From Bacteroidales bacterium (GTDB taxonomy: Bacteria > Bacteroidota > Bacteroidia > Bacteroidales > UBA12077): a stretch of 64,000 nt of DNA. The DNA is taken from the NCBI GenBank assembly GCA_018334675.1, contig JAGXLL010000002.1, forward strand, positions 62,001 through 126,000. Reading direction: 5' to 3'. Of the stretch, positions 48,155 through 61,736 are shown in pieces; positions within the stretch are counted from its first letter, which is position 1, and each line of letters begins with the position of its first letter. The notes beneath the pieces were generated by a model. That model was given only the letters and a program-made list of their open reading frames with translations, was not told where the DNA came from and ran no database searches. The position numbers and the translations under genes were made by a program.

Positions 48155-49300
48155 CTACTTCTTTGCTGCATTCTTTAAACTATTGAAGTATATTGAAAAT
48201 GGACGGTAAGCAAGATGCGACCATTTTGAAAAAGGTACTTCAATCATAAGCATTGGAAACAATACCATCAAATGAAAAACATACATATAATAAGTGGGAT
48301 TTGGCATGCCGTTTATCCTGAAAATATGTACAAGAATTCCGCTAATGGTTGTTAAGAATAACAAAATAAGAAACGTCCAGTCTGTATAGTGCGAAAATTT
48401 GCTCTTCTCGTTATTCTTCTTCAATCGAATTGCTGTAAAATAGATAATCCCAGCAGTTAACCCGAAGGTTGCATAATATCCCAGTAATCTCTGAGGATGC
48501 CACCAGTTATGGATTTCATCCGTCTGAAACCATTCAAGAAATCCGACAATCAGCACAAAGAGTGTCACATAACCCGACATCAGCAACCAGTGCATGATCC
48601 AATAGGTGACTGATTTTTTCTTATTATCCGGATTTTCTTCTTCTGTACTACATTTTTTAAACTGCCATTGGGTAGCAAAATGAAATATGAGTTTCCATAA
48701 TTCGGTAAAATAAAGTTTAAGGGGTACTTTAACCGACTTATCTTTGAGTATTACTTTTCTGTACATATTAAATACATTGGAAAGTAAGAAAAAAGATAAA
48801 AATCCGGCCATAATCCAGTCGCCTATTTCAATTGTCTTCCAGGGAGCAAAAGTATTCAGTTTTACACCCCCTTGTTCAGTAAGTGTAGTTTCCATGGGTC
48901 CGTGATAAAGCAGGAACAGGACTAAAACAACCGTAGCAAGAAGGACAATGGCTACCAACTCCCATATCTTGGAAGTATAAAACTTCTTTGACAGGCCGGT
49001 CCAGTCATATGCAGCTGTCAGATACCGACGCAACGACATCATCAACTCTCCCGGATTGGCTTCACGCGGACAGGTACTGCTGCATTCACCACAATAATAG
49101 CAGTTCCATGGATCCAGCGAACGCTGAATCTTGTCTTCCAGTCCTAAAACACTGGCGCGAATCATATTTCTTGGGAATGAGTTATCCGTATCAGACAAAG
49201 AGCATATGGCCGTGCAATTCCCACAGTTATAGCACATGCTTGTATCGAATGCCCCAAACTTCTTTAGAGTAACTGAAAAATCAGGGTTTAATATAGACAT
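48155..49300 (-). CDS. qmoC: QmoC-like membrane subunit (HdrC fused to cytochrome-b-like HdrE)
   Basis: The 381-residue protein starts with two [4Fe-4S] motifs: C23, C26, C29, C33 (CYNCGNCTAIC) and C67, C70, C73, C77 (CYYCGECSSTC). About six membrane helices follow from residue 113, including WIMHWLLMSGYVTL and HYTDWTFLILLFLTTISGILVHIF with candidate haem His. This fused layout is that of QmoC, the quinone-interacting subunit of the Qmo complex. It is last in the operon, 7 bases after the HdrA gene, and probably carries electrons between the cytoplasmic HdrA subunits and the quinone pool. Confidence 0.88.
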   Translation of the reverse strand: MSILNPDFSVTLKKFGAFDTSMCYNCGNCTAICSLSDTDNSFPRNMIRASVLGLEDKIQRSLDPWNCYYCGECSSTCPREANPGELMMSLRRYLTAAYDWTGLSKKFYTSKIWELVAIVLLATVVLVLFLLYHGPMETTLTEQGGVKLNTFAPWKTIEIGDWIMAGFLSFFLLSNVFNMYRKVILKDKSVKVPLKLYFTELWKLIFHFATQWQFKKCSTEEENPDNKKKSVTYWIMHWLLMSGYVTLFVLIVGFLEWFQTDEIHNWWHPQRLLGYYATFGLTAGIIYFTAIRLKKNNEKSKFSHYTDWTFLILLFLTTISGILVHIFRINGMPNPTYYMYVFHLMVLFPMLMIEVPFSKWSHLAYRPFSIYFNSLKNAAKK

Positions 49301-49307
49301 CTTTCCA

Positions 49308-51530
49308 TTATTTTTTTAGTTCATATAAATAATACTCATCTTCGTTGATCTCTTCCGTATCCTTCACGAAGCCATATTTTCTCAACGACATTAAGTAATA
49401 CATTACATCTTCACTCGGGTGCTTCAACTCTGCAGCTATTTCAGGAATTGCTTTAGAACCTGATTCAAGTGATTGAAGTATTCTCTTGCTCATTTCAGGT
49501 AATGCATTTGCCAGTTTGTCTGCGTTATTGGTCACACCTTCAGCTGATTCGGCTTCTTTTGCCTGATGGTCTTCAATTAACCGGACATCTTTAACAAAAG
49601 CATCAATCATCCCTTCTATTTCCTCATTGGAGTAACCAACAATACTTATTGCATCAGAAGGACAAACGGGAGTACATGCTCCGCAACCTTTACACAAGGC
49701 TTTGTTTACTTTAGCTACAGTTTTCCCGTCCGCTTCCACTTTTTCAAATGCATTGTAACTGCAAAGTTCATCACACTTTCCGCACCATTCACAAAGATCA
49801 GTATCAACAGTTGCAATAATTGGCTCAAGCTCTATCTTTCCCGAGTTAATCAATGAATTGGCTTTTGCTGAAGCGGCTAAAGTTGAAGCCATGGTGCCCC
49901 TCACATTTTTAGGACTCTGGCAAGCACCGGCAATAAAAACACCATCAATTACAGTCTCTACAGGTCGGAGTTTTGTATGCACCTCATTATAAAATTTATC
50001 GCTTCCAATAGGAACTTTCAAAATTTCAGCAACACTTTGATCCTTTCTTTGAACCATTCCGGTAACCAATACAACCAGGTCGGCAGAGACTTCAATGTTT
50101 TCATTTTGTGTCAGTGCATCCTGAACGGTTATTTTAGTTTGTTCACCTCTCTTTTCTACTTCAGGAAATGCTCCTTCAAAAAACTGGAGGTAAATATCCC
50201 CTTGTCTCGAAGAGTCGGTAAAGCATGTTTCCTGTTTTCCATAGGTTCTGATGCCCCTTGTAATATGGAAATTTCTGACTTCAGGATATTTGTTCTTTAC
50301 ATTCAATGCCGACTGAATAGCAGAGGTACAACAATAACGCGAACAATGTTTGTTGTCCCCATCAGGCTGGCGACTACCAACACAATATATGTAGGCAATA
50401 TCCCGGATCTTCTTTCCTTTGTATTCAAGCGTTCCATTGCTCATATCAAGTAAGCGGCGGAATTGCTGAAGAGTAATCACATTGTCTACAGTTTTATATC
50501 CAAACTCACCCTCCTCAGGTTCATACGGGTCAAACCCGGTATTAAGAAGGATAGCACCCGCATTGAAAGTAATATGCTCCACTTCCTGATCAAGATCGAT
50601 TTTTCCGTCACAGATTTTTTGGCACGCTCCACACTTATTACACAATTCCATATCAATTACAGGACTTTCCGGATAGGCTTCCCTGTAATTTTTATAGATC
50701 GCTTTGCGTTTGGTGAGCCCAAAATTGAATTCATCCTCCACTTCAAGCGGGCAGGCTTTCAATACCTGATCGAGAAAATCGTCGTCGCATTTTCCAAAGA
50801 CATACCGGGGTGTTATCTTAACACCTAACTCGAAATTACCAATGTTCCCATTTAAAGATTCAACCTCTGCTCCTGTAAAGAGTGTAATGTCATCGCGTTC
50901 TTTAATTTGTTTATAAAGTCGCTCAACAAGATTTTTCCCTTCCTCGTTTGTTGGAAATAAATGACCCCACTGAGCTGTTCTTCCTCCTACAAAGTGATCT
51001 TTCTCGATCAGATACACCTGACTTCCCTGGTCAGCCAGTTCAATGGCTGAACGCATTCCGGAAATCCCTGCACCAATAACAGCGGCAACGTTTTTTGCTT
51101 CAATTTCAATAGGTTGTAAACTTTGAGACATTCTGACCTTTGAGATAGCCGCTCTTATAATACGTACCGCCTTATCCGTTGCATCATCGGTACGGTCGGA
51201 ATGAGCCCATGAGCATTGCTCCCGGATGTTTGCATGGACATAGTTGTATTGGTTTAGCCCGGCCCTCTTTGCCACATCCCTGAAAGTGAGCAAGTGCAGC
51301 TTAGGAGAACAGGATGCTACCACCATACCATCCAGATCGTTTTCAATGATCTTTTCAATGATTTCAACCTGGGCTGAATCGGAACAAGTAAACATGGTTG
51401 TTTTCACTAACTGAACACCAGGTTCATTTTCAACAACTTTTGCTACTTTTTCCACCTCTACATAATCGGAAATATTTCCGCCGCAATAGCAGATGAATAC
51501 GCCTATTTTTTCTTTATGATCTTTTTTCAT
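49308..51530 (-). CDS. hdrA: HdrA-like FAD/iron-sulfur protein with C-terminal winged-helix-like extension
   Basis: The 740-residue protein has an HdrA N-terminal domain (1 to about 130: IGVFICYCGGNI, SCSPKLHLLTFRDVAKRAG). The FAD-binding motif GAGISGMRSAIELA starts at 153. A cluster lies at C297-C300-C303-C307, the HdrA-type CVGSRQ...HCSRYCC region at 383-401, and a C-terminal ferredoxin domain at C580, C583, C586, C590 and C613, C616, C619, C623. Residues about 676-740 look like a winged helix (SKRILQSLESGSKAIPEIAA). HdrB-type CCG domains are absent. The gene overlaps the previous one by 4 bases and has AGGAGG before its start. Confidence 0.88.
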   Translation of the reverse strand: MKKDHKEKIGVFICYCGGNISDYVEVEKVAKVVENEPGVQLVKTTMFTCSDSAQVEIIEKIIENDLDGMVVASCSPKLHLLTFRDVAKRAGLNQYNYVHANIREQCSWAHSDRTDDATDKAVRIIRAAISKVRMSQSLQPIEIEAKNVAAVIGAGISGMRSAIELADQGSQVYLIEKDHFVGGRTAQWGHLFPTNEEGKNLVERLYKQIKERDDITLFTGAEVESLNGNIGNFELGVKITPRYVFGKCDDDFLDQVLKACPLEVEDEFNFGLTKRKAIYKNYREAYPESPVIDMELCNKCGACQKICDGKIDLDQEVEHITFNAGAILLNTGFDPYEPEEGEFGYKTVDNVITLQQFRRLLDMSNGTLEYKGKKIRDIAYIYCVGSRQPDGDNKHCSRYCCTSAIQSALNVKNKYPEVRNFHITRGIRTYGKQETCFTDSSRQGDIYLQFFEGAFPEVEKRGEQTKITVQDALTQNENIEVSADLVVLVTGMVQRKDQSVAEILKVPIGSDKFYNEVHTKLRPVETVIDGVFIAGACQSPKNVRGTMASTLAASAKANSLINSGKIELEPIIATVDTDLCEWCGKCDELCSYNAFEKVEADGKTVAKVNKALCKGCGACTPVCPSDAISIVGYSNEEIEGMIDAFVKDVRLIEDHQAKEAESAEGVTNNADKLANALPEMSKRILQSLESGSKAIPEIAAELKHPSEDVMYYLMSLRKYGFVKDTEEINEDEYYLYELKK

Positions 51531-54235
51531 TTCAACCTCCTTAAATAACTTGCTGCTTCAGAAGCCGCACCGCCTGCAGAAAGAATGGTATCCGGAATAT
51601 CTTTGGGACCGGAGGCTGTTCCTGCGACAAATACTCCATCTATATTTGTTGAAGCGGGACTGGCTAATTCATCAACTTGTTTGACATAATTGAATCTATC
51701 CAGCTCAATGGATTTTTCTGAAAACATGCCGGAGACATCCATATTCGGAAGAGCCCCAACAGACAGCACAGTTAAATCATGTTTGGCTTCCTTTACTTTA
51801 CCTTCCAGGACATCTTCATATCTCAATATCATATCTCCATTTTCGCTTTCCTTCACTTTCGCAACTTTTCCTTTGACAAAGTTGACCCCCATCCCTTTGG
51901 CTCGTTGATAGAATTCTTCGAAACCTTTTCCGAATGATCTGATATTCATGTAATAAATTGTAATATCGGCAAGAGGCAATGCGCCCATCAATAATTGAGC
52001 TTGTTTGATGGAATACATACAACAGATTTGTGAGCAAATCGGGTTTCCAACGGTTTCATCCCTTGATCCGGCACATAGTATGTAAGCAATGTTATCAGGA
52101 ATCCTTCCGTCCGATGGTCTTAGAACTGTGTTGTAAGGACGGGTGGGAACCAAATGTCGTTCCATATCCATTGCTGTTATCACATTGGATATTTTTCCTC
52201 CACCGTAGTTGGGGAGATTTTCCTTGGGGAAGAGCTTAAATCCGGTGGAAACAATAACAGATTTTGCATCAACAGAAAGCTCTTCTTCCTTTTGAGAAAA
52301 ATCAATGGCATCGGCAGGGCATGCAGAAACGCATTGATGACATTCCCTGCAAATATTACAATCCAGACACCTGCTGGCATTCAGGAAAGCTTCTTCCTCT
52401 GAATAGGTGGCTTCAATCTCTTCAAAATCTTTAATCCTTTCTTCGGCGGATCTTTCATATGCCATTACAGGCATTACCGATGGCTGATTTTCCATCCGGG
52501 CCAGCACTTCTTCCTTACTGGCAGGGGGTAATCTGTGATCAAATTCATGATCCGCCAGGTTTTCCCCCTGCAAATATTTATCAATAAAGAAGGCGGCTCG
52601 TTTCCCTTGCCCGGCTGCTTCAATAATTGATGAAGCACCTGTAACCACGTCACCACCGGCAAAAATATGTGCCTGGGAAGTTTGCAGGGTTTCAGAATTC
52701 ACATTGATGGTACCGTTCTTATTCAATTCCAGTTCATTGGTGAAAGTAGAGGTTGTGGCAAGCAAACCGATTGAGGTAATTGCCAGCTCTGCTTTTATAA
52801 CGTGTTCCGAACCTTTTATCTCTTCAGGCCTTCTTCTTCCACTTGCATCAGGTTCACCCAGTTTCATCCTGACACACTTCACTGCATTTAATTTTCCGTT
52901 TTCTCCTATGAATTCGACAGGATTCTTTAGAAACTGGAATTCAATACCTTCATCTTCTGCTTCTTTTACTTCCACATCAGCAGCCGGCATTTGATAACGG
53001 TCACGGCGGTATACAACTATTACTTTCTCCGCTCCCAATCTTTTTATTGTTCTGGCTGAGTCCATAGCAACATTTCCTCCACCAAAAACCAATACCGTTT
53101 TACCTGAAACATCCATCTTATCTCCCTTGTTTACACTTTTCAGGAAAGATAAACAGCACAATATACCCTCAAGGTCCTTTCCTTTGAGGTCAAATTTCAC
53201 GGTTTCATGCGTACCGACAGAAACATAAATTGCATCAAACCCCTGGCTTTTAAGCTCTTCAAAATTTTCCACAACATGATTCACTTCATATTCAACACCA
53301 AGAGCCGTAATGTTCTTTATATCTCTTTCTACAATATTATTGGGAAGGCGAAAAGAAGGAATGGATGATTTTAACATACCACCCAATTCGCTGTCGCCCT
53401 CGAATATTTTAACGCTATGTCCGGATTTTGCCAGATGATAAGCAGCTGTCAAACCTGAAGGTCCTGACCCGATAACAGCCACCTTTTTACCAGACTGAGC
53501 TTCAATATCTTCAAATTTGGGTTCTGAATATTTATTGTAATAATAATCAGAAAAAAATCTTTTGATGCGACGAATAGTTACGGGTTCGTCTTTATCTTTT
53601 CTTGTACATTCTCCTTCACAGGGTGCATAACAAGCCCTTCCGAGTGAACCGGGCAGTGGAATATCCTCCAGGTGAAGATTCATAGCTTCTTCATACAATC
53701 CATTCCGGACAAGAGAAACATAGCCATGTGCTTTTACTCCACCCGGGCAGGTGGTAATACAGGGAGAAGAGGTTCCGTTTCTTTGTATAGTGGCTACCTT
53801 AGGACTTGCAGTTGTAAATGGGATAAATGCTGTTTTCTTGGCAACAAATCCATAATTATAAGGATCTTCGTTATATTCAGGGCAACTCACTTCACATTCG
53901 CTACACCCTGTACAGATAGATTCATTGACGTATCTTGGATTCTTAATGATGTTTGCATTAAATCCATTTCCGTTTTTGGCTATACCTTGAACTTCGCTGT
54001 AAGTTAAAAGAGTTATATTGGGATGGCGGCTTGTTTCAGACATTTTGGGTGTCGTAATGCAAGCAGAGCAGTCAAGTGTAGGAAATACTTTGCTCAGGTG
54101 GATCATTTTACCACCAATAGACAGGTCTTTTTCAACCAACAGCACTTTAAATCCCATTTTAGCGAGATTAAGAGAAGCTTCCTGACCTGCTACACCGCCT
54201 CCAATAATTAGCGAATCGTATTTGTTATTATCCAT
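51527..54235 (-). CDS. HdrA split by an inserted NfnB/GltD-like NAD(P)H oxidoreductase module
   Basis: I start at Met 54235 (MDNNKYDSLI), just before the FAD motif; a start at 54268 would overlap the previous gene by 41 bases. Of 902 residues, 1-130 are HdrA-like: GGGVAGQEAS, FPTLDCSACITTPKM and cluster C108-C111-C114-C118. Residues about 155-560 are GltD/NfnB-like: C159, C163, C202, C206, C210, then FAD motif GSGPSGLTAAYHLAK (256), and NADPH-type GGGNVAMDSARTIKRLG with YRRDR (385-413). Residues about 600-902 resume HdrA: six Cys over C623-C639, CAGSRD (721) and ICSQICCMYSIKQA (733). This would let NAD(P)H exchange electrons with the Hdr/Qmo-like complex. Confidence 0.87.
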   Translation of the reverse strand: MDNNKYDSLIIGGGVAGQEASLNLAKMGFKVLLVEKDLSIGGKMIHLSKVFPTLDCSACITTPKMSETSRHPNITLLTYSEVQGIAKNGNGFNANIIKNPRYVNESICTGCSECEVSCPEYNEDPYNYGFVAKKTAFIPFTTASPKVATIQRNGTSSPCITTCPGGVKAHGYVSLVRNGLYEEAMNLHLEDIPLPGSLGRACYAPCEGECTRKDKDEPVTIRRIKRFFSDYYYNKYSEPKFEDIEAQSGKKVAVIGSGPSGLTAAYHLAKSGHSVKIFEGDSELGGMLKSSIPSFRLPNNIVERDIKNITALGVEYEVNHVVENFEELKSQGFDAIYVSVGTHETVKFDLKGKDLEGILCCLSFLKSVNKGDKMDVSGKTVLVFGGGNVAMDSARTIKRLGAEKVIVVYRRDRYQMPAADVEVKEAEDEGIEFQFLKNPVEFIGENGKLNAVKCVRMKLGEPDASGRRRPEEIKGSEHVIKAELAITSIGLLATTSTFTNELELNKNGTINVNSETLQTSQAHIFAGGDVVTGASSIIEAAGQGKRAAFFIDKYLQGENLADHEFDHRLPPASKEEVLARMENQPSVMPVMAYERSAEERIKDFEEIEATYSEEEAFLNASRCLDCNICRECHQCVSACPADAIDFSQKEEELSVDAKSVIVSTGFKLFPKENLPNYGGGKISNVITAMDMERHLVPTRPYNTVLRPSDGRIPDNIAYILCAGSRDETVGNPICSQICCMYSIKQAQLLMGALPLADITIYYMNIRSFGKGFEEFYQRAKGMGVNFVKGKVAKVKESENGDMILRYEDVLEGKVKEAKHDLTVLSVGALPNMDVSGMFSEKSIELDRFNYVKQVDELASPASTNIDGVFVAGTASGPKDIPDTILSAGGAASEAASYLRRLK

Positions 54236-54653
54236 CTTTTTGTCCGGTTTCGTTTTTAATACTTCCAAGACCTGATAGGGTCTCAGAAAAACTTTTCATG
54301 TGGCCCACAAACGGATCAGCACAAACTGAACACAATGCAGCCATTTTAACTCTCGCCAGGTCAATTCCCTCCTCTTTCATTACTTGCTGTGCCTTCGATA
54401 TTGAATTGTTGGTTAACGCAGAGCAATCGGAACGGAATGCACAATCCGTTCCGTCGCTTGCGATAAAGACTCCGTCCATACCTTTGTGCAATGCTTTTAA
54501 AATCCAATTGGGTTTTACCGCACTTGTACAAGGTAAAGTAATGTTGTAAACACGAGGTGAATAATGCTTTTTGAGCAGACCGGCAAGATCAATAGCGGGA
54601 TCCGATATCTTTTCAGATGAAAATACAAGAATCCGTGGTTGATAGTCGCTCAT
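54228..54653 (-). CDS. MvhD/FlpD-like protein with partly lost cysteines
   Basis: The 141-residue protein follows the MvhD pattern: ILVFSSEKISDPAIDLAGLL, TLPCTSAVKPNWILKALHKGMDGVFIAS, DCAFRSDCSA, and FSETLSGLG. MvhD carries a [2Fe-2S] cluster in hydrogenase/Hdr electron transfer. The first Cys pair (usually CxxC in the FSCEWC segment) is replaced by SSEKIS, so the cluster may be missing or altered. Its stop overlaps the next start by 8 bases (ATGGATAA). It is the small partner of the two HdrA-like proteins. Confidence 0.75.
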   Translation of the reverse strand: MSDYQPRILVFSSEKISDPAIDLAGLLKKHYSPRVYNITLPCTSAVKPNWILKALHKGMDGVFIASDGTDCAFRSDCSALTNNSISKAQQVMKEEGIDLARVKMAALCSVCADPFVGHMKSFSETLSGLGSIKNETGQKDG

Positions 54654-54671: not shown

Positions 54672-54923
54672 TTAATTTTTCTTTAAATACAATGTGAAAT
54701 ATCCGGCCTCTTCAAAGTCACCTAAATATTCGTGTCCTTGTTTCTTTGCCCATCGGGGAACATCTCTTTTTGTTCCTGCATCGGAAGAGAGGATTTCCAT
54801 GATTCCCCCGCTTGGTACATCGGCAATTGCCTGTTTTACTGCTAAAAGTGGGCCAGGGCATGCAGTTCCTCTTGAATCGACTACTTTGTGAGATTCTAAT
54901 GCTTTTAATTCTTCAGTTGTCAT
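54672..54923 (-). CDS. tusA: TusA-family sulfur carrier
   Basis: The 83-residue protein carries VVDSRGTACPGPLLAVKQAI with the sulfur-binding Cys22 in the CPxP motif, a GTKRDVPRWAKKQGH segment and a final strand pattern of the two-layer TusA fold. TusA accepts persulfide sulfur and passes it to partner proteins. It lies between the DsrE-like and MvhD-like genes. A second TusA begins the operon at 60621-60851. Confidence 0.92.
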   Translation of the reverse strand: MTTEELKALESHKVVDSRGTACPGPLLAVKQAIADVPSGGIMEILSSDAGTKRDVPRWAKKQGHEYLGDFEEAGYFTLYLKKN

Positions 54924-54953: not shown

Positions 54954-55367
54954 TTATAGCGTAATATTGAGATCTGCACCAGATGCTCCTTCCAGGTATT
55001 CGCCGATACCTACGATTTCATCCACCAGATCGATAAAGTCTTCTTTATTTTCTCCACCTGCCACTTTTCCAGCCAGACTACATACATAAACATTTACTGA
55101 AGTCATATCCTTAGCCATTTCAAAAAATTCCGTCCATTTTGGCGTGGAAAACTGGTCGAGTGCCTGCTGAAATTTTTCCGCACTCTGGGCTGTATCCGCC
55201 ATACCGCTGACATTTCCATTCTGGCTTTTTACAAAAGCCTGACCGGCATTGACAAGGACATATACATCAACTTCCATATCCTCGGCAGCAGCCCCACTCA
55301 ATATAACTCCTGCATTGGTTAATTTATCTAATGAAGAAGTTGTTAATGCTAAAACTAATTTTGACAT
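54954..55367 (-). CDS. DsrE/DsrF-like protein
   Basis: The start is placed at Met 55367 (MSKLVLALTT), where the fold begins; the longer reading to 55448 runs into the rhodanese gene. The 137-residue alpha/beta protein (DsrE-like) has ALTTSSLDKLTNAGVILSGAA, MEVDVYVLVNAG and one Cys (Cys96 in VYVCSLAGK) near the position used for sulfur in DsrE/DsrE2 proteins. DsrE-type proteins take sulfur from TusA; here a TusA gene follows 30 bases downstream. Confidence 0.82.
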   Translation of the reverse strand: MSKLVLALTTSSLDKLTNAGVILSGAAAEDMEVDVYVLVNAGQAFVKSQNGNVSGMADTAQSAEKFQQALDQFSTPKWTEFFEMAKDMTSVNVYVCSLAGKVAGGENKEDFIDLVDEIVGIGEYLEGASGADLNITL

Positions 55368-55386
55368 ATTTCTCTGTTTTAATGAT

Positions 55387-55896
55387 TCAACCACCACATC
55401 CTCCTCCGGATGATTCTTCATTTTCAGGCGCAGCAGGTTGGGATTCATCCATTCCCTGTTCTACCCATTCCGGGTAAGCTTCTTGCCAATCAAACCAACT
55501 AAAATCCAGGAGATGACAGTCGGAATATTTGAGCAACTCCAGATTCTTGACAGCTAATGCTCCGCTTGCCATTTCATTACCAAATACCAGGGTTTTTAGC
55601 CTTCGATTTGAAAGTTTACCGGAAAACTCAAGCAACCCCCTGGGAATATGCATTGCAGAAGGAAAATGCCCAAGAATGTAATCGTATTCTGTCCGGCAGT
55701 CCACAATCTGGATGTTAACATTACTATCCAGCAATGCCCTGAATTGATCCATACCCATAAGAGAAATATCTTTCTTCGCTGTTTTTATCATTGCTTCAGG
55801 ACTTTCATATACCTTCTCCGTATCGAGCGGATTGCTGCAATTCCAAAAAAGGAACAGAAAAAGGAAGGCGGATATAAATAATTTTAAATTTTTCAT
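55387..55896 (-). CDS. Rhodanese-like lipoprotein lacking the active Cys but ending GGGCGG
   Basis: The 169-residue protein has a lipoprotein signal with lipobox-like FWNC (Cys20). A rhodanese domain covers about 45-150 (IQIVDCRTEYDYILGHFPSAMHIPRGLLEF). The catalytic loop reads LVFGNEMASGA, with Gly106 where the active Cys would be, so sulfur transfer in the usual way is unlikely. The tail ESSGGGCGG places Cys167 in GGCGG at the very C-terminus, as in SoxY carriers. The paralogous gene at 58863 has the same tail with an intact active site. Confidence 0.85.
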   Translation of the reverse strand: MKNLKLFISAFLFLFLFWNCSNPLDTEKVYESPEAMIKTAKKDISLMGMDQFRALLDSNVNIQIVDCRTEYDYILGHFPSAMHIPRGLLEFSGKLSNRRLKTLVFGNEMASGALAVKNLELLKYSDCHLLDFSWFDWQEAYPEWVEQGMDESQPAAPENEESSGGGCGG

Positions 55897-55903
55897 GCTT
55901 CTG

Positions 55904-56713
55904 TTAATTTAATTTCCACTCATTGTAAGCTCCATCGTAAACGGTTACATTGGAATACCCCAGCACTGAATTAAGGGCAAGAAATACGATACCGGCACGT
56001 GCACTTGTAGCGCAATAGAGAATCACTTCCTTATCCTTTGTGATCCCTGCACCCTTGAAAAGTTTGGCAAGTTCTTCCTTTGATTTCAATTTATCGCTAT
56101 CAGTAAGGACATTTTTATACTCCAGGTTTCTTGCGCCATTGATATGCCCTTCGTTAAATTCCTTATCGCTTCGCACGTCCAAAAGAGCCGCGCTGCTGAG
56201 CTTTGATTTTACATAACCCATGTCAGCAAAAATTGCCTTATTTACCTTAGGAGTAAAAGAAGTGGCTTGAACTTTGGTACCGCCATTGGTAACCGGCCCT
56301 CTTGCAGACCTCCAGGCTCTCATGTGCCCATCCATAATATTCACATCGGAAAAACCAAGATATTTGAGAACCCAATAAAGTCTTCCGGAACCAATGCCTG
56401 AACCACTATCATAAATAATGATTTTCTTGTCAGGAGAAATCCCTTTTCCTCCCAGAAGAGTGGCAAGTTCAGAAGAACCTTTCAATATGCCTTTAGGTTC
56501 ACCATCTTTTTCAAGTGTACCCATTGGTACATTTACTGCACCCCTGATATGCACCTTTGCATAATCACTTGCACCGCGAGCGGATACTACAATAGTATTG
56601 CTGCTTTTGAGCGCTTTCTTTGTATCGGCAGCAGAAATTAAATCCTGCGCCATGGAAGCCTGAGAGAATATAAGCATGAAAACCAGGCTGAATAAAATAC
56701 GTTGTGTCTTCAT
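55904..56713 (-). CDS. Secreted tandem-rhodanese sulfurtransferase
   Basis: The 269-residue protein has a signal peptide ending ASMAQ (residue 23) and two rhodanese domains (about 25-140, 155-269). The N-terminal domain has YDSGSGIGSG in place of a Cys loop and is inactive by sequence. The C-terminal one has ILYCATSARAG with Cys234 and LLDVRSDKEFNEGHINGA. This layout is that of SseA/TST-type sulfurtransferases, here periplasmic. It could move sulfane sulfur between small thiols and the GGCGG carriers beside it (7 bases upstream of the 55387 gene). Confidence 0.88.
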   Translation of the reverse strand: MKTQRILFSLVFMLIFSQASMAQDLISAADTKKALKSSNTIVVSARGASDYAKVHIRGAVNVPMGTLEKDGEPKGILKGSSELATLLGGKGISPDKKIIIYDSGSGIGSGRLYWVLKYLGFSDVNIMDGHMRAWRSARGPVTNGGTKVQATSFTPKVNKAIFADMGYVKSKLSSAALLDVRSDKEFNEGHINGARNLEYKNVLTDSDKLKSKEELAKLFKGAGITKDKEVILYCATSARAGIVFLALNSVLGYSNVTVYDGAYNEWKLN

Positions 56714-56761
56714 AATCTTCTTTCTTTTTATTTATTAATAATGCAGGCAAACAGCCTATTG

Positions 56762-57793
56762 CTAAAAAATAACCTGGGCCTGAATAACGAACTGATCGTT
56801 GGGCACCTCATCATCTCCCTCAGCCCTGTAGCGATAGTTCAACTGCAAGCGGGTCCAGTCGTTCATAAAGTAGTTCATCCCATATGTTAACACGGTTTCC
56901 GTATTGTTATCAATCGAAACATCCGAGTCATAAGCCTCATACTTCAGAACAGGCTGAATACTCCATTCAGTCATATACATAGCCTGCACAAAGTAGCCAT
57001 TCCGGGTAACGCCACCGGTATGGTATTCAATAGGCGTTCCGTCACAACCTCCACCGGTGGTATAATCTCCGGTATCGTCCCCCCAGAGGTACTCACCCTG
57101 GAGAAGAAAATTACCCAGTGTGAGTTGCAGCTCACCGCCCAAGCGGGTTTTTGTATTGTCGGATTCAGGACCTGTCATACCATAAGCAAAACTTCCTCCC
57201 ACCTGAAGTTGCTCAATGGGAGAAAACGTGAGGCGGCTCTTGAGACTCTTTTCTTTATTCTCATCCTTAAACCCCATTTTATAATCGTTCATGAAAGCGA
57301 TGTAATAATTTATCCTGGCGTCCATCAGTTTTCCGGAGAGCATCACTCCCAGGTCCCGTTGGGGTGCTGCCAGCTCATTAACCACCTTTGAACGATATAC
57401 GGTGTGTAAGCTTTGACAAGCCGTGTTTTGTTCCAGACTGAGGGGAGATTTGAACTGTCCGACGGAGGCATTTAACCAATCAAACCTATTGTAGGTGATG
57501 AATGCATCGAGAACATAGGGAGAACCAGGTTTAAACCTGGAAAAATCAACCATTAAATAATAACTAATGTCATAAGGGATATTCCCAAGTACACCCAACC
57601 TGGCACGATTGAAAGTAAAACTGTTGCTATTGCCTCCATCCGTTGTTTGTGCGTATTCCCACTGAGGTTGGAGATAACCTGCAATGTTCACACCTTCGGA
57701 AGAAGCTTCCATACATCCTTGCCCATTGGCCACCTGTAATGCAAACAGAGACGCTACAAACAGCAGGGCAACTCTTATTTTGTTTTTACGCAT
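56762..57793 (-). CDS. Porin, phosphate-selective OprO/OprP type
   Basis: The 343-residue outer-membrane barrel has a signal peptide ending VANGQ (residue 25). Typical features are VNIAGYLQPQWEY, FTFNRARLGVLGNI, VGQFKSPLSLEQ and the terminal aromatic F. OprO/P porins conduct anions. Within this operon it may admit thiosulfate, tetrathionate or other anionic sulfur compounds, but that is inferred from context alone. Confidence 0.87.
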   Translation of the reverse strand: MRKNKIRVALLFVASLFALQVANGQGCMEASSEGVNIAGYLQPQWEYAQTTDGGNSNSFTFNRARLGVLGNIPYDISYYLMVDFSRFKPGSPYVLDAFITYNRFDWLNASVGQFKSPLSLEQNTACQSLHTVYRSKVVNELAAPQRDLGVMLSGKLMDARINYYIAFMNDYKMGFKDENKEKSLKSRLTFSPIEQLQVGGSFAYGMTGPESDNTKTRLGGELQLTLGNFLLQGEYLWGDDTGDYTTGGGCDGTPIEYHTGGVTRNGYFVQAMYMTEWSIQPVLKYEAYDSDVSIDNNTETVLTYGMNYFMNDWTRLQLNYRYRAEGDDEVPNDQFVIQAQVIF

Positions 57794-57856
57794 ATCTTAA
57801 TCGATTAGTCTGTAAAAGAAAAGCTGAGCAGGACATTCCTGCCCAGCTTAAAATAT

Positions 57857-58822
57857 TTATTCCAAAGGAAGATCAGTTGATGGCGTGGCCCATTTATGAC
57901 TTTCCAGGTTGTCATAAATCATTCCGTTCGCACCGAATTTTAAACTAAGCGCATCATACCCCAATACATACAAGTATGCTGAAATAACAGAGGATGTCTG
58001 GCCGGTCCAGCAATACGTAACAATGCTTTTTTCAGGGTCGAGTTTTTTGTATTCTCCACCAGCAAGGGTTAAAGGTTTAATTCGGTATGCACCGGAAATG
58101 TTACCATAATGCTCTACATCTTCAGCACCCCAATAGTTATTTATAAAATACGATCCGGGATCGCCTAATACATCACCGTTACCCACACCATTAAATCCGT
58201 TTGATAATAAAGCATTTACTCTTGCTTCAAGAATTTCTGCGCCGGTTCCGGTTTCTGTGATATCCGGGTCATCATATTCATCAGTAGCTTCGACAGTTGA
58301 GCCGGGTGAATCAATCCATCCATCATTTGCTGTATTGCCAACATTAGACTCCCAGGGAGCCGAAAGTGAGCTGTTCCAGCCACTCATACCCCACTTGAGC
58401 ACTTTGGCATCCGGATATCCACTGAGTCGCAAAGCAGCAACTGCATGCCCGGCAGTTTGTCCTGTGTAACACACTACAACAGGTGTTTTATCACCTGCAT
58501 CCTCAGCAGTGGCAAGTATATTTCCTAATGTCGAATTCACAGCTCCGGAAATGCTGCCGCCATTATAAGACTCACTGCTTCTGATATCAATGACATAATA
58601 ATTGCTCAGGTTTGCATTTACATCCTGGGCTGTTGTTATCCAACCATCCAATAGATTGTTTAAATCCAGGTTTTCTGACTGCAGATGGGATACCAATGTC
58701 TGGAATTCTTCATCCGTTTGACGATTTGGTTGTAAGTCATCATCAGAATCCTCCTTACAGGAAGTGAGGATGACTGCTGAAAACAAAATGGCTAAGACTG
58801 AAATTTTCATTAAATTTTTCAT
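57857..58822 (-). CDS. Lipoprotein with two active-looking rhodanese domains
   Basis: The 321-residue protein has lipobox LTSC (Cys22). The first rhodanese domain (about 55-150) contains YYVIDIRSSESYNGGSISGA and Cys118 in VVVCYTGQTAG. The second (about 195-310) contains Cys271 in VTYCWTGQTSS. Both catalytic loops use CxTGQT instead of CRxGxR, an unusual loop shared by the two domains. It likely sits in the outer membrane facing the periplasm or outside. Confidence 0.85.
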   Translation of the reverse strand: MKNLMKISVLAILFSAVILTSCKEDSDDDLQPNRQTDEEFQTLVSHLQSENLDLNNLLDGWITTAQDVNANLSNYYVIDIRSSESYNGGSISGAVNSTLGNILATAEDAGDKTPVVVCYTGQTAGHAVAALRLSGYPDAKVLKWGMSGWNSSLSAPWESNVGNTANDGWIDSPGSTVEATDEYDDPDITETGTGAEILEARVNALLSNGFNGVGNGDVLGDPGSYFINNYWGAEDVEHYGNISGAYRIKPLTLAGGEYKKLDPEKSIVTYCWTGQTSSVISAYLYVLGYDALSLKFGANGMIYDNLESHKWATPSTDLPLE

Positions 58823-58862
58823 AATACTTGGTTTAATCTATTAATAATCATTTCTTTAATAA

Positions 58863-59348
58863 TTAACCGCCACAACCTCCCGAATCCGCTTCTTTCTCAA
58901 TGGCGGGTTCACCACCCGAGAAAGCGATCCAGCCACCTTTCAGGTTAGCGACGTTTTTAAATCCCAGTTGCTTTAGAGTATGAGCAGCAAGAACTCCTCT
59001 TACACCGGATTGGCAATAGACGATAATCTGATCTTCCTTCTCCGGGGTATACATGAATTGTTCTTCCCAGAAAGAGTCATCAAATATCTGGAATTCCAGA
59101 ACACCGCGGGGAATAGAAACAGACCCGGGTATGTTTCCTGCTTCCTTCTCATCCGGTTGCCTCACATCCAATAAGAGGAACTCAGCTCCATTATCGATCA
59201 TCGACTTTAAGGAATCGACTCCTATTTCATGTATTTCTGAGCGAAGACCATCGGCTAACTCATTCCCATCTTCATAAATACCTGTACAACCGACAGATAA
59301 AAAGAATAGGAGTGCTATTAGTGATACATTAAGTTGCATATATTTCAT
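58863..59348 (-). CDS. Rhodanese lipoprotein with SoxY-like GGCGG C-terminus
   Basis: The 161-residue protein has a lipoprotein signal (LSVGC, Cys21). The rhodanese domain (about 38-148) contains LLLDVRQPDEKEAGNIPGSVSIPRGVLEF and active-site Cys112 in IVYCQSGVRG. The C-terminus EADSGGCGG holds Cys159 in a GGCGG motif on a short Glu/Lys-rich linker. SoxY uses this motif as a swinging arm to carry sulfur intermediates; combining it with a rhodanese domain and lipid anchor is not an arrangement I recall. It is a paralogue of the 55387 product (shared IPRGxLEF). Confidence 0.88.
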   Translation of the reverse strand: MKYMQLNVSLIALLFFLSVGCTGIYEDGNELADGLRSEIHEIGVDSLKSMIDNGAEFLLLDVRQPDEKEAGNIPGSVSIPRGVLEFQIFDDSFWEEQFMYTPEKEDQIIVYCQSGVRGVLAAHTLKQLGFKNVANLKGGWIAFSGGEPAIEKEADSGGCGG

Positions 59349-59396: not shown

Positions 59397-60611
59397 TTAA
59401 AAAGCGCTGAATTTCCCTGTCCGTTCATTCCATTTGACAAAAAGGTACCAGCTGAATATGACGAGAAGTACAATCAGCACCGCACCAGTGTAGCCAACAT
59501 AGTCCGGCAAATAACTCCTAAACTTCATGGTATGTGGCAGCAGGCCATCTACGCCGTCCACGATGAATGATTTGGAAAGGGGGGAAATTAAAAGAAAACC
59601 AATGGCAGACATCCACAGCTTCACCTGTCCTTCACCTACCCGCCATAGTGTACCGACAGCGCAACCACCGGCAACTGTCATTCCCAGTCCGAATATAAAC
59701 CCTCCGAAAAGACCTCTTAACCAGAAATGCCCAAAGACCCATGCCATCTCTCTTGCGCGCAAAGCGTTTTCGCCGGCGCCTATTCCAAAGTATTTAATGG
59801 CTGTAAACCCCACTAAGGTGATAAGCAATCCGGCCATCACACCCACGGAACCATCCGATTCCCCGGTCATAAATGGATCTCTGAAAGCTTTAACAATACA
59901 AAAACGTGACCTTTGGCATATCAGTCCCATCAGCAAGCCTGAAATGATGAACCAGGCCAGTACACCGTTGGTTCCAGCTACCTGGTACGCCAAACCAAAA
60001 ACACCAATGAAAATGATCCAGCCAAGATAAACCTGCCAGTTTCCCTTCTTCTCCGTAGCAGAAAGAAAGGTATAACTCTTGCCGGTACTTATTTTGGGAT
60101 ATTTCTCCATTTCCCACATAAGATACCTCAAGGCAACAATGGTCCCGGCAAATAAACCCATGGTGAAAATTATGGCACCTCCAGATAGAGCGGGTACACC
60201 ACTGAAGAATGAGCCAATTGTGCAACCCAAACCAATAGTTGCACCAACAGCCATTAAACCGCCACCAATAAATCCTTTCACCAATTCACCTTTGGGAGGG
60301 ATACGAAGAGCAAATTCCTTTGAAAATAAGGCTCCAACTAATGAACCAACTATAATGATTAAACATAATATACCATATAAACTGGCACTTGTTGGGGTGG
60401 CATTTTCAAAACCGGCAATTCCAACGCTTTTAAAAACATTCTCACCCCAGTTGTTTATGCCACCGCTCGCTCCCCATGGACTTTTAACAGCAAACAACAG
60501 GATATTTAACAAACCAAGCGTCACTCCACCGACCCATACAGGCCAGTGTTTTGAGAAAAAGGTGTTGTATAGTTCTCGCAATATACCCGGTTCTTTATTT
60601 TGTTGTTCCAT
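59397..60611 (-). CDS. YeeE/YedE (TsuA/SoxT-type) sulfur-compound permease
   Basis: The 404-residue inner-membrane protein has about ten helices. Conserved cysteines are Cys130 in TIGLGCTIG, Cys232 and Cys238 in CQRSRFC, and Cys317 in VAGGCAVGTLWR, the features of the thiosulfate transporter TsuA and of SoxT. It would bring thiosulfate or sulfane sulfur to the cytoplasm. It follows tusA by 9 bases (TusA partners are common) and has AGGAGG before the start. Confidence 0.9.
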   Translation of the reverse strand: MEQQNKEPGILRELYNTFFSKHWPVWVGGVTLGLLNILLFAVKSPWGASGGINNWGENVFKSVGIAGFENATPTSASLYGILCLIIIVGSLVGALFSKEFALRIPPKGELVKGFIGGGLMAVGATIGLGCTIGSFFSGVPALSGGAIIFTMGLFAGTIVALRYLMWEMEKYPKISTGKSYTFLSATEKKGNWQVYLGWIIFIGVFGLAYQVAGTNGVLAWFIISGLLMGLICQRSRFCIVKAFRDPFMTGESDGSVGVMAGLLITLVGFTAIKYFGIGAGENALRAREMAWVFGHFWLRGLFGGFIFGLGMTVAGGCAVGTLWRVGEGQVKLWMSAIGFLLISPLSKSFIVDGVDGLLPHTMKFRSYLPDYVGYTGAVLIVLLVIFSWYLFVKWNERTGKFSAF

Positions 60612-60620
60612 TTTAACCTC

Positions 60621-60851
60621 CTACTTCTTTTGGATTAAAAACCTGAAGGCACCACCTTCCATCTCTCCTTCTTCAACCAATACATTGCCAGTTTTTGTAC
60701 ACCATTTGGGTAAATCAGATTTTGTTCCAGGATCGGTACCCAACATTTCCAGCACTTCACCAGAACTTAATTTCTTAATTGCCTTTGCCAGTTTCATCAT
60801 TGGCATTGGGCAAGAAAGACCTTTACAATCTAATGTTTCTTTTATTTCCAT
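60621..60851 (-). CDS. tusA: TusA-family sulfur carrier, first gene of operon
   Basis: The 76-residue protein has LDCKGLSCPMPMMKLAKAIKKL with Cys14 in CPMP and a second Cys9, then GTKSDLPKWCTKTGN. It is distinct in sequence from the 54672 TusA. Being immediately upstream of the YeeE/YedE gene, it is the likely acceptor of the transported sulfur. The leader holds two dyads: GTGTTA/TAACAC (60867-60884) and ATTGTTAACAAT (60889-60900). Confidence 0.92.
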   Translation of the reverse strand: MEIKETLDCKGLSCPMPMMKLAKAIKKLSSGEVLEMLGTDPGTKSDLPKWCTKTGNVLVEEGEMEGGAFRFLIQKK

Positions 60852-61012: not shown

Positions 61013-61040
61013 TAACCTGATTAATTTTAAATCTTTGTAT

Positions 61041-61736
61041 ATGAAGTATTTGAACGCACTAAACAGTTGCACTGTCAGTAATGCCAAATGCATCTGTTTT
61101 GATTTTCTGACTCCGGAGCAACAAGAATTAATCAATCAAAATTCAACAGATGTTCGATTTAAAAAGGGTGAAAATATATGCAAACATGGAACCTTATCTC
61201 CCCATATTATCTATTTAAAGTCAGGATTGGCCAAAATTTTCATGGAAGGTCTGAATGAGTCGTTAATATTAAAAATCATTCCCCCGGGGAATCTTATCGG
61301 GTTAACATCGCTGCGTGATGGCAATAATCGGTTTCATTATTCATCAATGGCTTACATGGATTCTGAGGCTACATTAATCGATATCGATGTATTCAGAAAA
61401 ATAATAAATGAAAACGCAAAATTTGCCTCTTCAATCATCGATATATTGTGTGAAAATTCCTTGCAAACGTTTGGCAGATTCTTTTGTTTTACCCACAAAC
61501 AACTCTATGGTCGCCTTGCAGATATTCTCTTATGTCTGTCTGAAAGAATATTTAAAGAGGATGAATTTGAACTCAATCTTTCCAGAAAGGAATTAGCAGA
61601 ACTAACAGGAATGTCCACAGAAAGTGTTATCCGGATGCTCAAAAAATTTAAAGACGACCAGATTATTCAGATGGAGGGTAAAAAAATCAGGATAACCGAT
61701 GCCCAATTACTGAAAAAAATCAGCGAATACGGTTAA
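61041..61736 (+). CDS. Crp/Fnr-family transcriptional regulator
   Basis: The 231-residue protein has an N-terminal cyclic-nucleotide-binding-like beta barrel (about 25-140: FKKGENICKHGT, YLKSGLAKIFMEG, PPGNLIGLTSL) and a C-terminal helix-turn-helix (about 180-203: LSRKELAELTGMSTESVIRMLKKF). N-terminal Cys10, Cys17 and Cys19 plus others (47, 137, 149, 165) could hold a cluster or sense thiols, though the spacing differs from FNR (C-x2-C-x5-C). Start at ATG 61041; a TTG six bases upstream is possible. Divergent from the operon, it is the likely controller. Confidence 0.85.
   Translation: MKYLNALNSCTVSNAKCICFDFLTPEQQELINQNSTDVRFKKGENICKHGTLSPHIIYLKSGLAKIFMEGLNESLILKIIPPGNLIGLTSLRDGNNRFHYSSMAYMDSEATLIDIDVFRKIINENAKFASSIIDILCENSLQTFGRFFCFTHKQLYGRLADILLCLSERIFKEDEFELNLSRKELAELTGMSTESVIRMLKKFKDDQIIQMEGKKIRITDAQLLKKISEYG

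Follow-up and report, generated by a model that had tools for sequence, protein, structure and literature searches.

The sulfur carrier SoxY is a periplasmic protein of a sulfur pathway that bears a single cysteine on a flexible arm ending in GGCGG. Here we analyze two single-domain rhodanese lipoproteins, RhdA and RhdB, encoded in a 64,000-nucleotide stretch of a Bacteroidales genome (GenBank assembly GCA_018334675.1, contig JAGXLL010000002.1, positions 62,001 to 126,000; hereafter the window), which resemble SoxY in their C-terminal GGCGG, lone arm cysteine, predicted periplasmic location and sulfur-pathway setting, but differ from it in having a rhodanese fold and a lipoprotein anchor. By analogy with SoxY, we consider it probable that both are periplasmic covalent sulfane-sulfur carriers that work by a SoxY-like mechanism, without being SoxY proteins, and feed a YeeE-type transporter. 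Two further proteins invite comparison. Sud is a small extracytoplasmic rhodanese that binds sulfur at its active-site cysteine and passes polysulfide sulfur to a respiratory reductase, and to our knowledge it has no GGC tail; LbpA of the sHdr pathway is cytoplasmic and uses lipoate. RhdA and RhdB match Sud of Wolinella succinogenes (PDB 1qxn) in sequence and fold, whereas most RhdB proteins have lost the active-site cysteine at which Sud binds sulfur. The likeness to LbpA lies in its extra C-terminal cysteine, often flanked by glycine, and in its service to an Hdr-like system, whereas its fold is that of a lipoate-binding protein; this cysteine and the GGCGG arm of SoxY have themselves been likened (PMC6067878, excerpt).

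On the import side, the YeeE-like protein SoxT is thought to receive SoxYZ-bound sulfur, and transfer from the SoxY cysteine to SoxT has been called conceivable; the periplasmic donor described there is SoxYZ, perhaps via DsbA or SoxS, and not a rhodanese (PMC11582611, excerpt). In sulfur disproportionators, YedE/YeeE, TusA and DsrE are encoded together in the YTD cluster (PMC12998232 and PMC9751629, excerpts), the complete form of which is placed only in Desulfobacterota and Nitrospirota in the excerpt of PMC12998232 (2026). The operon of the window holds the same yedE, tusA and dsrE core in one cluster, but whereas YTD adds the conserved hypothetical proteins chp1-chp3, the window has tailed rhodaneses, a porin and HdrA, FlpD and QmoC proteins. 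We found no description of the tailed rhodaneses in the open-licence PMC literature. If they are carriers, rhodanese would be the third fold, after those of SoxY and LbpA, among carriers with a Gly-flanked terminal cysteine, and they would bear on the open question of the route by which sulfane sulfur passes through the periplasm to importers of the YeeE type.

RhdA and RhdB share a conserved Gly-Cys terminus

An earlier reading of the window from its sequence (hereafter the original prediction) had both proteins ending in GGCGG, at Cys159 and Cys167. This was borne out, with both genes on the minus strand; the plus-strand translation of either open reading frame (ORF) is full of stops. RhdA (P0002; 58863..59348, minus strand) has 161 amino acids, keeps its catalytic Cys112 in the active-site segment YCQSGVRG and ends in ...EADSGGCGG (Cys159), and RhdB (P0001; 55387..55896, minus strand) has 169 amino acids, carries Gly in place of the catalytic cysteine and ends in ...EESSGGGCGG (Cys167). 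The Gly had been predicted at the position of Cys112, with which it does align, but its own number is 106 and not 112. Rhodanese (PF00581) was the sole Pfam family detected in RhdA (E 9.6e-19) and RhdB (E 4.7e-10), above cut-off in both, it matched 27/27 members of the RhdB alignment, and rhodaneses were the top matches of RhdA in Foldseek. The SoxY family was not found among the library matches of RhdA and RhdB at E 0.01, nor among those of the 27 RhdB alignment members at E 1; with no profile match, and with rhodaneses leading the fold search, SoxY membership was rejected. SoxZ and soxXAB are absent from the operon, the rest of the genome not having been searched for them, and a whole-genome search with TIGR04488 gave no match and allows no conclusion because its controls were silent too. 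AlphaFold2 modeled the rhodanese core with pLDDT >90 and the tails (residues 156-161 of RhdA and 152-169 of RhdB) with pLDDT <50, and the tails are predicted to be disordered.

Lipoprotein signals had been proposed for both proteins. The lipobox of RhdA is good (SVGC), while that of the window RhdB is atypical (FWNC) and those of its relatives are good; the predicted lipobox cysteine is invariant in RhdA (Cys21, 31 rows) and present in at least 90% of 27 rows in RhdB (Cys20). The two had also been called paralogues on the strength of a shared IPRGxLEF motif. The motif is indeed common to both, but it is not specific to the pair and is weak evidence of paralogy, because tail-less rhodaneses of other phyla (Ideonella, Sulfuricurvum and Ponticoccus) carry a version of it. 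The phylogenetic tree splits RhdA from RhdB (support 100/98), and the tail codons of the two genes are not the same. Across the 3.09 Mb genome, GGCGG followed by a stop (pattern GGNGGNTGYGGNGGNTRR) matched twice, at rhdA and rhdB alone, and the reversed control pattern matched once. Together with the differing tail codons and the conservation of the tail Cys in relatives, these counts speak against a chance occurrence.

Relatives were gathered in several searches, mostly from metagenome-assembled genomes. Two peptide patterns lying outside the tail, scanned against named genomes, gave 30 loci, all in metagenome-assembled genomes; one of these bears the title Chlorobiota and the others those of Bacteroidota lineages. 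In 198 genomes of the window's order (taken as Bacteroidales), an initial search detected RhdA relatives of 49-57% identity in ten genomes other than that of the window, as well as five remoter relatives (36-46%) whose last residue is the Cys of ...GGC. When 393 genomes of the order were searched with a profile, 38 gave a match of E 1e-25 or lower, and the surroundings of most of these were fetched. After duplicates had been removed by the last 100 residues, the pool held 94 non-redundant relatives, 56 of RhdA and 38 of RhdB (36 of the latter complete). RhdA matches of 150 bits or less and RhdB matches of 125 bits or less were dropped, which takes out the double rhodaneses together with L018 and L019, both tail-less, and the ordinary rhodaneses of loci L020-L031 and L082-L110 were kept out.

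The tail cysteine was present in 53 of the 56 pooled RhdA proteins, followed by two residues in 34, by one in a single protein and by none in 18, and in 35 of the 36 complete RhdB copies. In the named-genome scan, 28/30 RhdA proteins had a Gly-Cys tail, or 29 when the +1 frame is included: the L066 gene is frameshifted, possibly by an assembly error, and its +1 frame still gives ...PSSGGCGG-stop. In the 88 tails taken together, Cys was found in 88/88, followed by GG in 53, GD in 10, GE in one, a single G in six and nothing in 18. Because 18/88 end at the cysteine and others in GGCGD, GGCGE or GGCG, the conserved element is the Gly-Cys terminus and not GGCGG as such. Nor is the class confined to the two paralogues, since YeeE-linked and double rhodaneses have GGC tails as well. 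Residues G166, C167 and G168 are invariant across the 27 rows of the RhdB alignment. The linkers vary in length and letters while the cysteine stays, the distance from the last conserved Gly of the domain to the tail Cys being 20-21 residues in class I RhdA (the window type), 28-36 in class II (described below) and 27-38 in RhdB.

Two outcomes that would have refuted the original prediction were looked for. Loss of the tail in most homologues was not seen (3/56 RhdA proteins are tail-less, one of them from a frameshifted gene whose +1 frame still gives ...SSGGCGG), and no tail with its Cys replaced was found among the pooled relatives. Among the distinct rhodanese-domain ORFs of the fetched loci, 128/220 had such a tail, a figure inflated by the choice of these loci for their rhodaneses; the fair background is given by their non-rhodanese ORFs of at least 120 amino acids, with 0/604. 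A phylum-wide profile search (395 genomes) returned mostly ordinary rhodaneses, and 29 of its loci served as controls, in which 0/30 ordinary rhodanese ORFs had the tail.

Several observations weigh against the carrier reading. Tail-less proteins do occur in the pool. Among the RhdA relatives they are those of L081, which lacks the catalytic Cys as well, of L144 and of L124, whose gene is frameshifted; among the complete RhdB-like copies it is that of L044. Remoter homologues outside this gene context have no tail (L018 and L019), and neither have the rhodaneses of plasmids from three members of other phyla (Ideonella, Sulfuricurvum and Ponticoccus), the three inspected of 68 matching records and our thin sample beyond Bacteroidota. 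Moreover, part of the set was collected with profile A1, whose columns extend over the tail, and this favours tailed matches.

The tail is kept where the rhodanese active site is lost

The original prediction held that the tail rather than catalysis is under selection. At the catalytic position, the 38 RhdB proteins have Ser in 17, Cys in nine, Gly in nine (two of these copies being cut by contig ends), Asn in two and Asp in one, and the tail Cys was kept in 27/27 complete RhdB proteins without the catalytic Cys. It was also kept in three class II RhdA proteins with Ser or Asp at that site. In a tree built without the catalytic column, the position changed state at least six times and between Cys and non-Cys at least twice, of which the well-supported branches force just one Cys/non-Cys change. 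The prediction is thus strongly supported for RhdB, while RhdA usually keeps both its catalytic Cys and its tail Cys.

The most serious rival to the carrier reading casts the tail Cys as a thiol with a structural or regulatory role, disulfide-bonded to a partner or to the Cys of its own domain, or sensing redox state, and carrying no sulfur. A lone exposed cysteine on a flexible arm could indeed form a mixed disulfide, and RhdA offers Cys112 as a second thiol. RhdB, however, keeps the arm though its catalytic Cys is usually lost, the tail is confined within these loci to rhodanese proteins, and the tailed rhodaneses adjoin sulfur carriers and thiosulfate or tetrathionate reductases, so we regard this role as unlikely. 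If a single lineage of Bacteroidota rhodaneses had kept the tail as a neutral oddity and multiplied it by duplication, this would agree with the relatedness of RhdA and RhdB and with the restriction of all the tailed copies seen to Bacteroidota. Such a history can scarcely be reconciled with linkers that change around an unchanging Cys, with an RhdB catalytic site that drifted while the tail did not, or with similar tails on distant rhodaneses of other architectures, and we give it hardly any weight.

A different working end is proposed if the terminal Gly-Gly is read as that of a thiocarboxylate carrier of the ThiS, MoaD or TtuB kind, whose last glycine is activated. Pathways of this kind commonly have rhodanese partners, and GG follows the Cys in 53/88 tails. 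The remaining 35/88 tails have no GG after the Cys, since 18 stop at the Cys, which all 88 have, and 17 end in GD, GE or a single G; the export signals direct the protein out of the cytoplasm and so out of reach of ATP-dependent adenylation, and its fold is that of a rhodanese and not ubiquitin-like. Because the terminal GG is not conserved, this extremely improbable reading was rejected as largely refuted. Binding of a metal or another anion (e.g. copper, selenite or tellurite) for detoxification, on the model of the Geobacter Ext operon, is suggested by the match of the porin to ExtI (54 bits, cut-off 150) and of YeeE to a selenium-related YedE model (126.5 bits, cut-off 350). Both matches are below cut-off, the motif offers a single Cys, with neither a His nor another Cys, and the neighbouring TusA, DsrE, HdrA, QmoC, octaheme tetrathionate reductase and PhsA indicate sulfur. 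A selenite or tellurite operon was rejected since its matches are sub-threshold only, and we consider metal or anion binding by the tail very unlikely.

Proposed sulfur relay and the operon of the window

From the analogy with SoxY and from gene context, we infer that the sulfur sits on the tail Cys of RhdA and RhdB. The flexible arm Cys would take up sulfane sulfur, as a persulfide or an S-thiosulfonate, and present it to partners. In the relay that we propose, an extracellular sulfur compound would reach the periplasmic double rhodanese by way of an outer-membrane double-rhodanese lipoprotein (RhdRhdLP) and the porin. The sulfur on the RhdA arm would come either from Cys112 of RhdA itself or from the two double rhodaneses, and RhdB would serve as an additional arm, in most lineages one on a dead rhodanese. 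YeeE could then receive sulfur from the arms and pass it to TusA1, TusA2 and DsrE, and a HdrA-FlpD-QmoC complex would finally exchange electrons with quinone. The order of these steps, the direction of electron flow and the membrane in which the lipoproteins are anchored are likewise what we infer, and the cytoplasmic TusA, DsrE, HdrA, FlpD and QmoC proteins could either reduce or oxidise the sulfur.

The operon comprises 13 minus-strand genes, from 60851 to 48155, which from their strand and spacing presumably form one transcript. Because most of the NCBIfam matches are below curated cut-offs, the subfamily names that we use are approximate. The first gene encodes the sulfur carrier TusA1 (60621..60851), with a CPMP motif whose Cys14 is present in 29/30 relatives, and the second a YeeE/YedE-family sulfur transporter (59397..60611; NF033796/NF052577 below cut-off) with C130, C238 and C317 invariant in 34/34. 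Downstream of rhdA lies the gene of RhdRhdLP (57857..58822), a Pfam-assigned double rhodanese with Cys in both domains in 38/38 and an acidic stretch after the lipobox (CKEDSDDD), where its relatives mostly have Cys-Lys and an acidic stretch as well. We take this stretch to resemble the surface-export signal of Bacteroidota, and together with the porin it suggests uptake from outside. The latter is an outer-membrane porin of O/P type (56762..57793; ExtI-like, below cut-off), followed by a double rhodanese with a Sec-type N-terminus (55904..56713; Pfam) and second-domain Cys234 in 43/43.

Beyond rhdB, which the listed start of the next gene overlaps, are encoded a DsrE-like protein (54954..55448; PF13686) with Cys123 in 35/35 and the sulfur carrier TusA2 (54672..54923; PF01206) with Cys22 in 32/32. 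Cysteines with a potential persulfide role are thus invariant in YeeE (three), TusA2, DsrE and both double rhodaneses. The remaining genes encode a FlpD/MvhD-type electron carrier subunit (54228..54653; PF02662), an HdrA-like flavoprotein into which a GltD-type NAD(P)H domain is inserted (51527..54268; library match), a second HdrA-like subunit with 4Fe-4S clusters (49308..51530; NF040770, below cut-off) and a QmoC-like membrane subunit of the HdrC plus cytochrome b type (48155..49300; NF038018, E 1.3e-57, below cut-off), which is probably the link to quinone. The GltD-type insert in the middle of the HdrA-like protein was seen elsewhere just in L055:15051-17768 and L069:2161-5007; complete loci of class I apart from these have an HdrA-like protein of about 435-458 amino acids with no such insert, which points to additional NAD(P)H input in a few lineages.

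The original prediction called for a test of co-occurrence with YeeE, TusA and HdrA, and co-occurrence with YeeE, TusA, DsrE and Hdr genes was confirmed in class I: YeeE lies beside RhdA in 30/30 named loci, and TusA1 is present in 26/30, the contigs of the four loci without it beginning too close. Divergent from the operon is a plus-strand gene (61035..61736) for what we take to be a Crp-family regulator. In many loci a regulator of this type stands next to an operon of class I or class II; it could sense sulfur or redox state.

Class II operons and other tailed rhodaneses

In class II operons an RhdA relative ends in ...GGC, in most loci together with the same double rhodaneses and porin. 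In 15/18 of these loci, the GGC rhodanese lies behind an octaheme tetrathionate reductase and a thiosulfate-reductase-type cytochrome b (L043, L045, L139-L143 and L145-L152); the reductase of L045 matches TIGR04315 above cut-off. In L044, the GGC-type RhdA relative accompanies PhsABC-like genes. A parallel is found in lucinid symbionts, in which the SoxY variant SoxY-S3 adjoins an octaheme tetrathionate reductase (PMC11237559, excerpt), as the GGC rhodanese does in class II. The natural substrate of this octaheme cytochrome is debated and its substrate in the cell is an open question, for which, as for its physiological role, the class II loci are a lead. Since rhodaneses bearing an arm like that of SoxY are conserved next to YeeE as well as this reductase, they offer concrete one-residue tests.

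The tail is also found on further proteins. Relatives of a YeeE half or a YeeE-rhodanese fusion were present in 80/198 genomes of the order (for instance L041:903-2147 and L159-L183), many matching the YeeE part only, and none was matched in the genome of the window. In 25 fetched loci of those 80 genomes, the YeeE-linked rhodanese ends in GGC, GGCS or GGCE in 23, and further rhodaneses of the same loci end in GGC too. Besides RhdA and RhdB, the bearers of the tail therefore comprise a YeeE-rhodanese fusion, a membrane rhodanese and a double rhodanese. Its presence on rhodaneses linked to YeeE and on double rhodaneses gives the Gly-Cys end the look of a portable module.

More tentatively, and with somewhat less than even confidence, we suggest that the Bacteroidota made their own equivalent of SoxY by placing Gly-Cys arms on several rhodanese architectures. 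These would form a relay from the cell surface through YeeE to Hdr/Qmo, a sister system would offer carrier-bound sulfur (e.g. carrier-S-S-SO3) to the octaheme tetrathionate reductase, and RhdB would be the pure-carrier end point. In Bacteroidota genomes from uncultured sources, the tail could serve as a sequence marker for the sulfur pathway. One double rhodanese, at L075:10719-11678 (minus strand), has a ...SSDGGC tail of its own, unlike its relatives.

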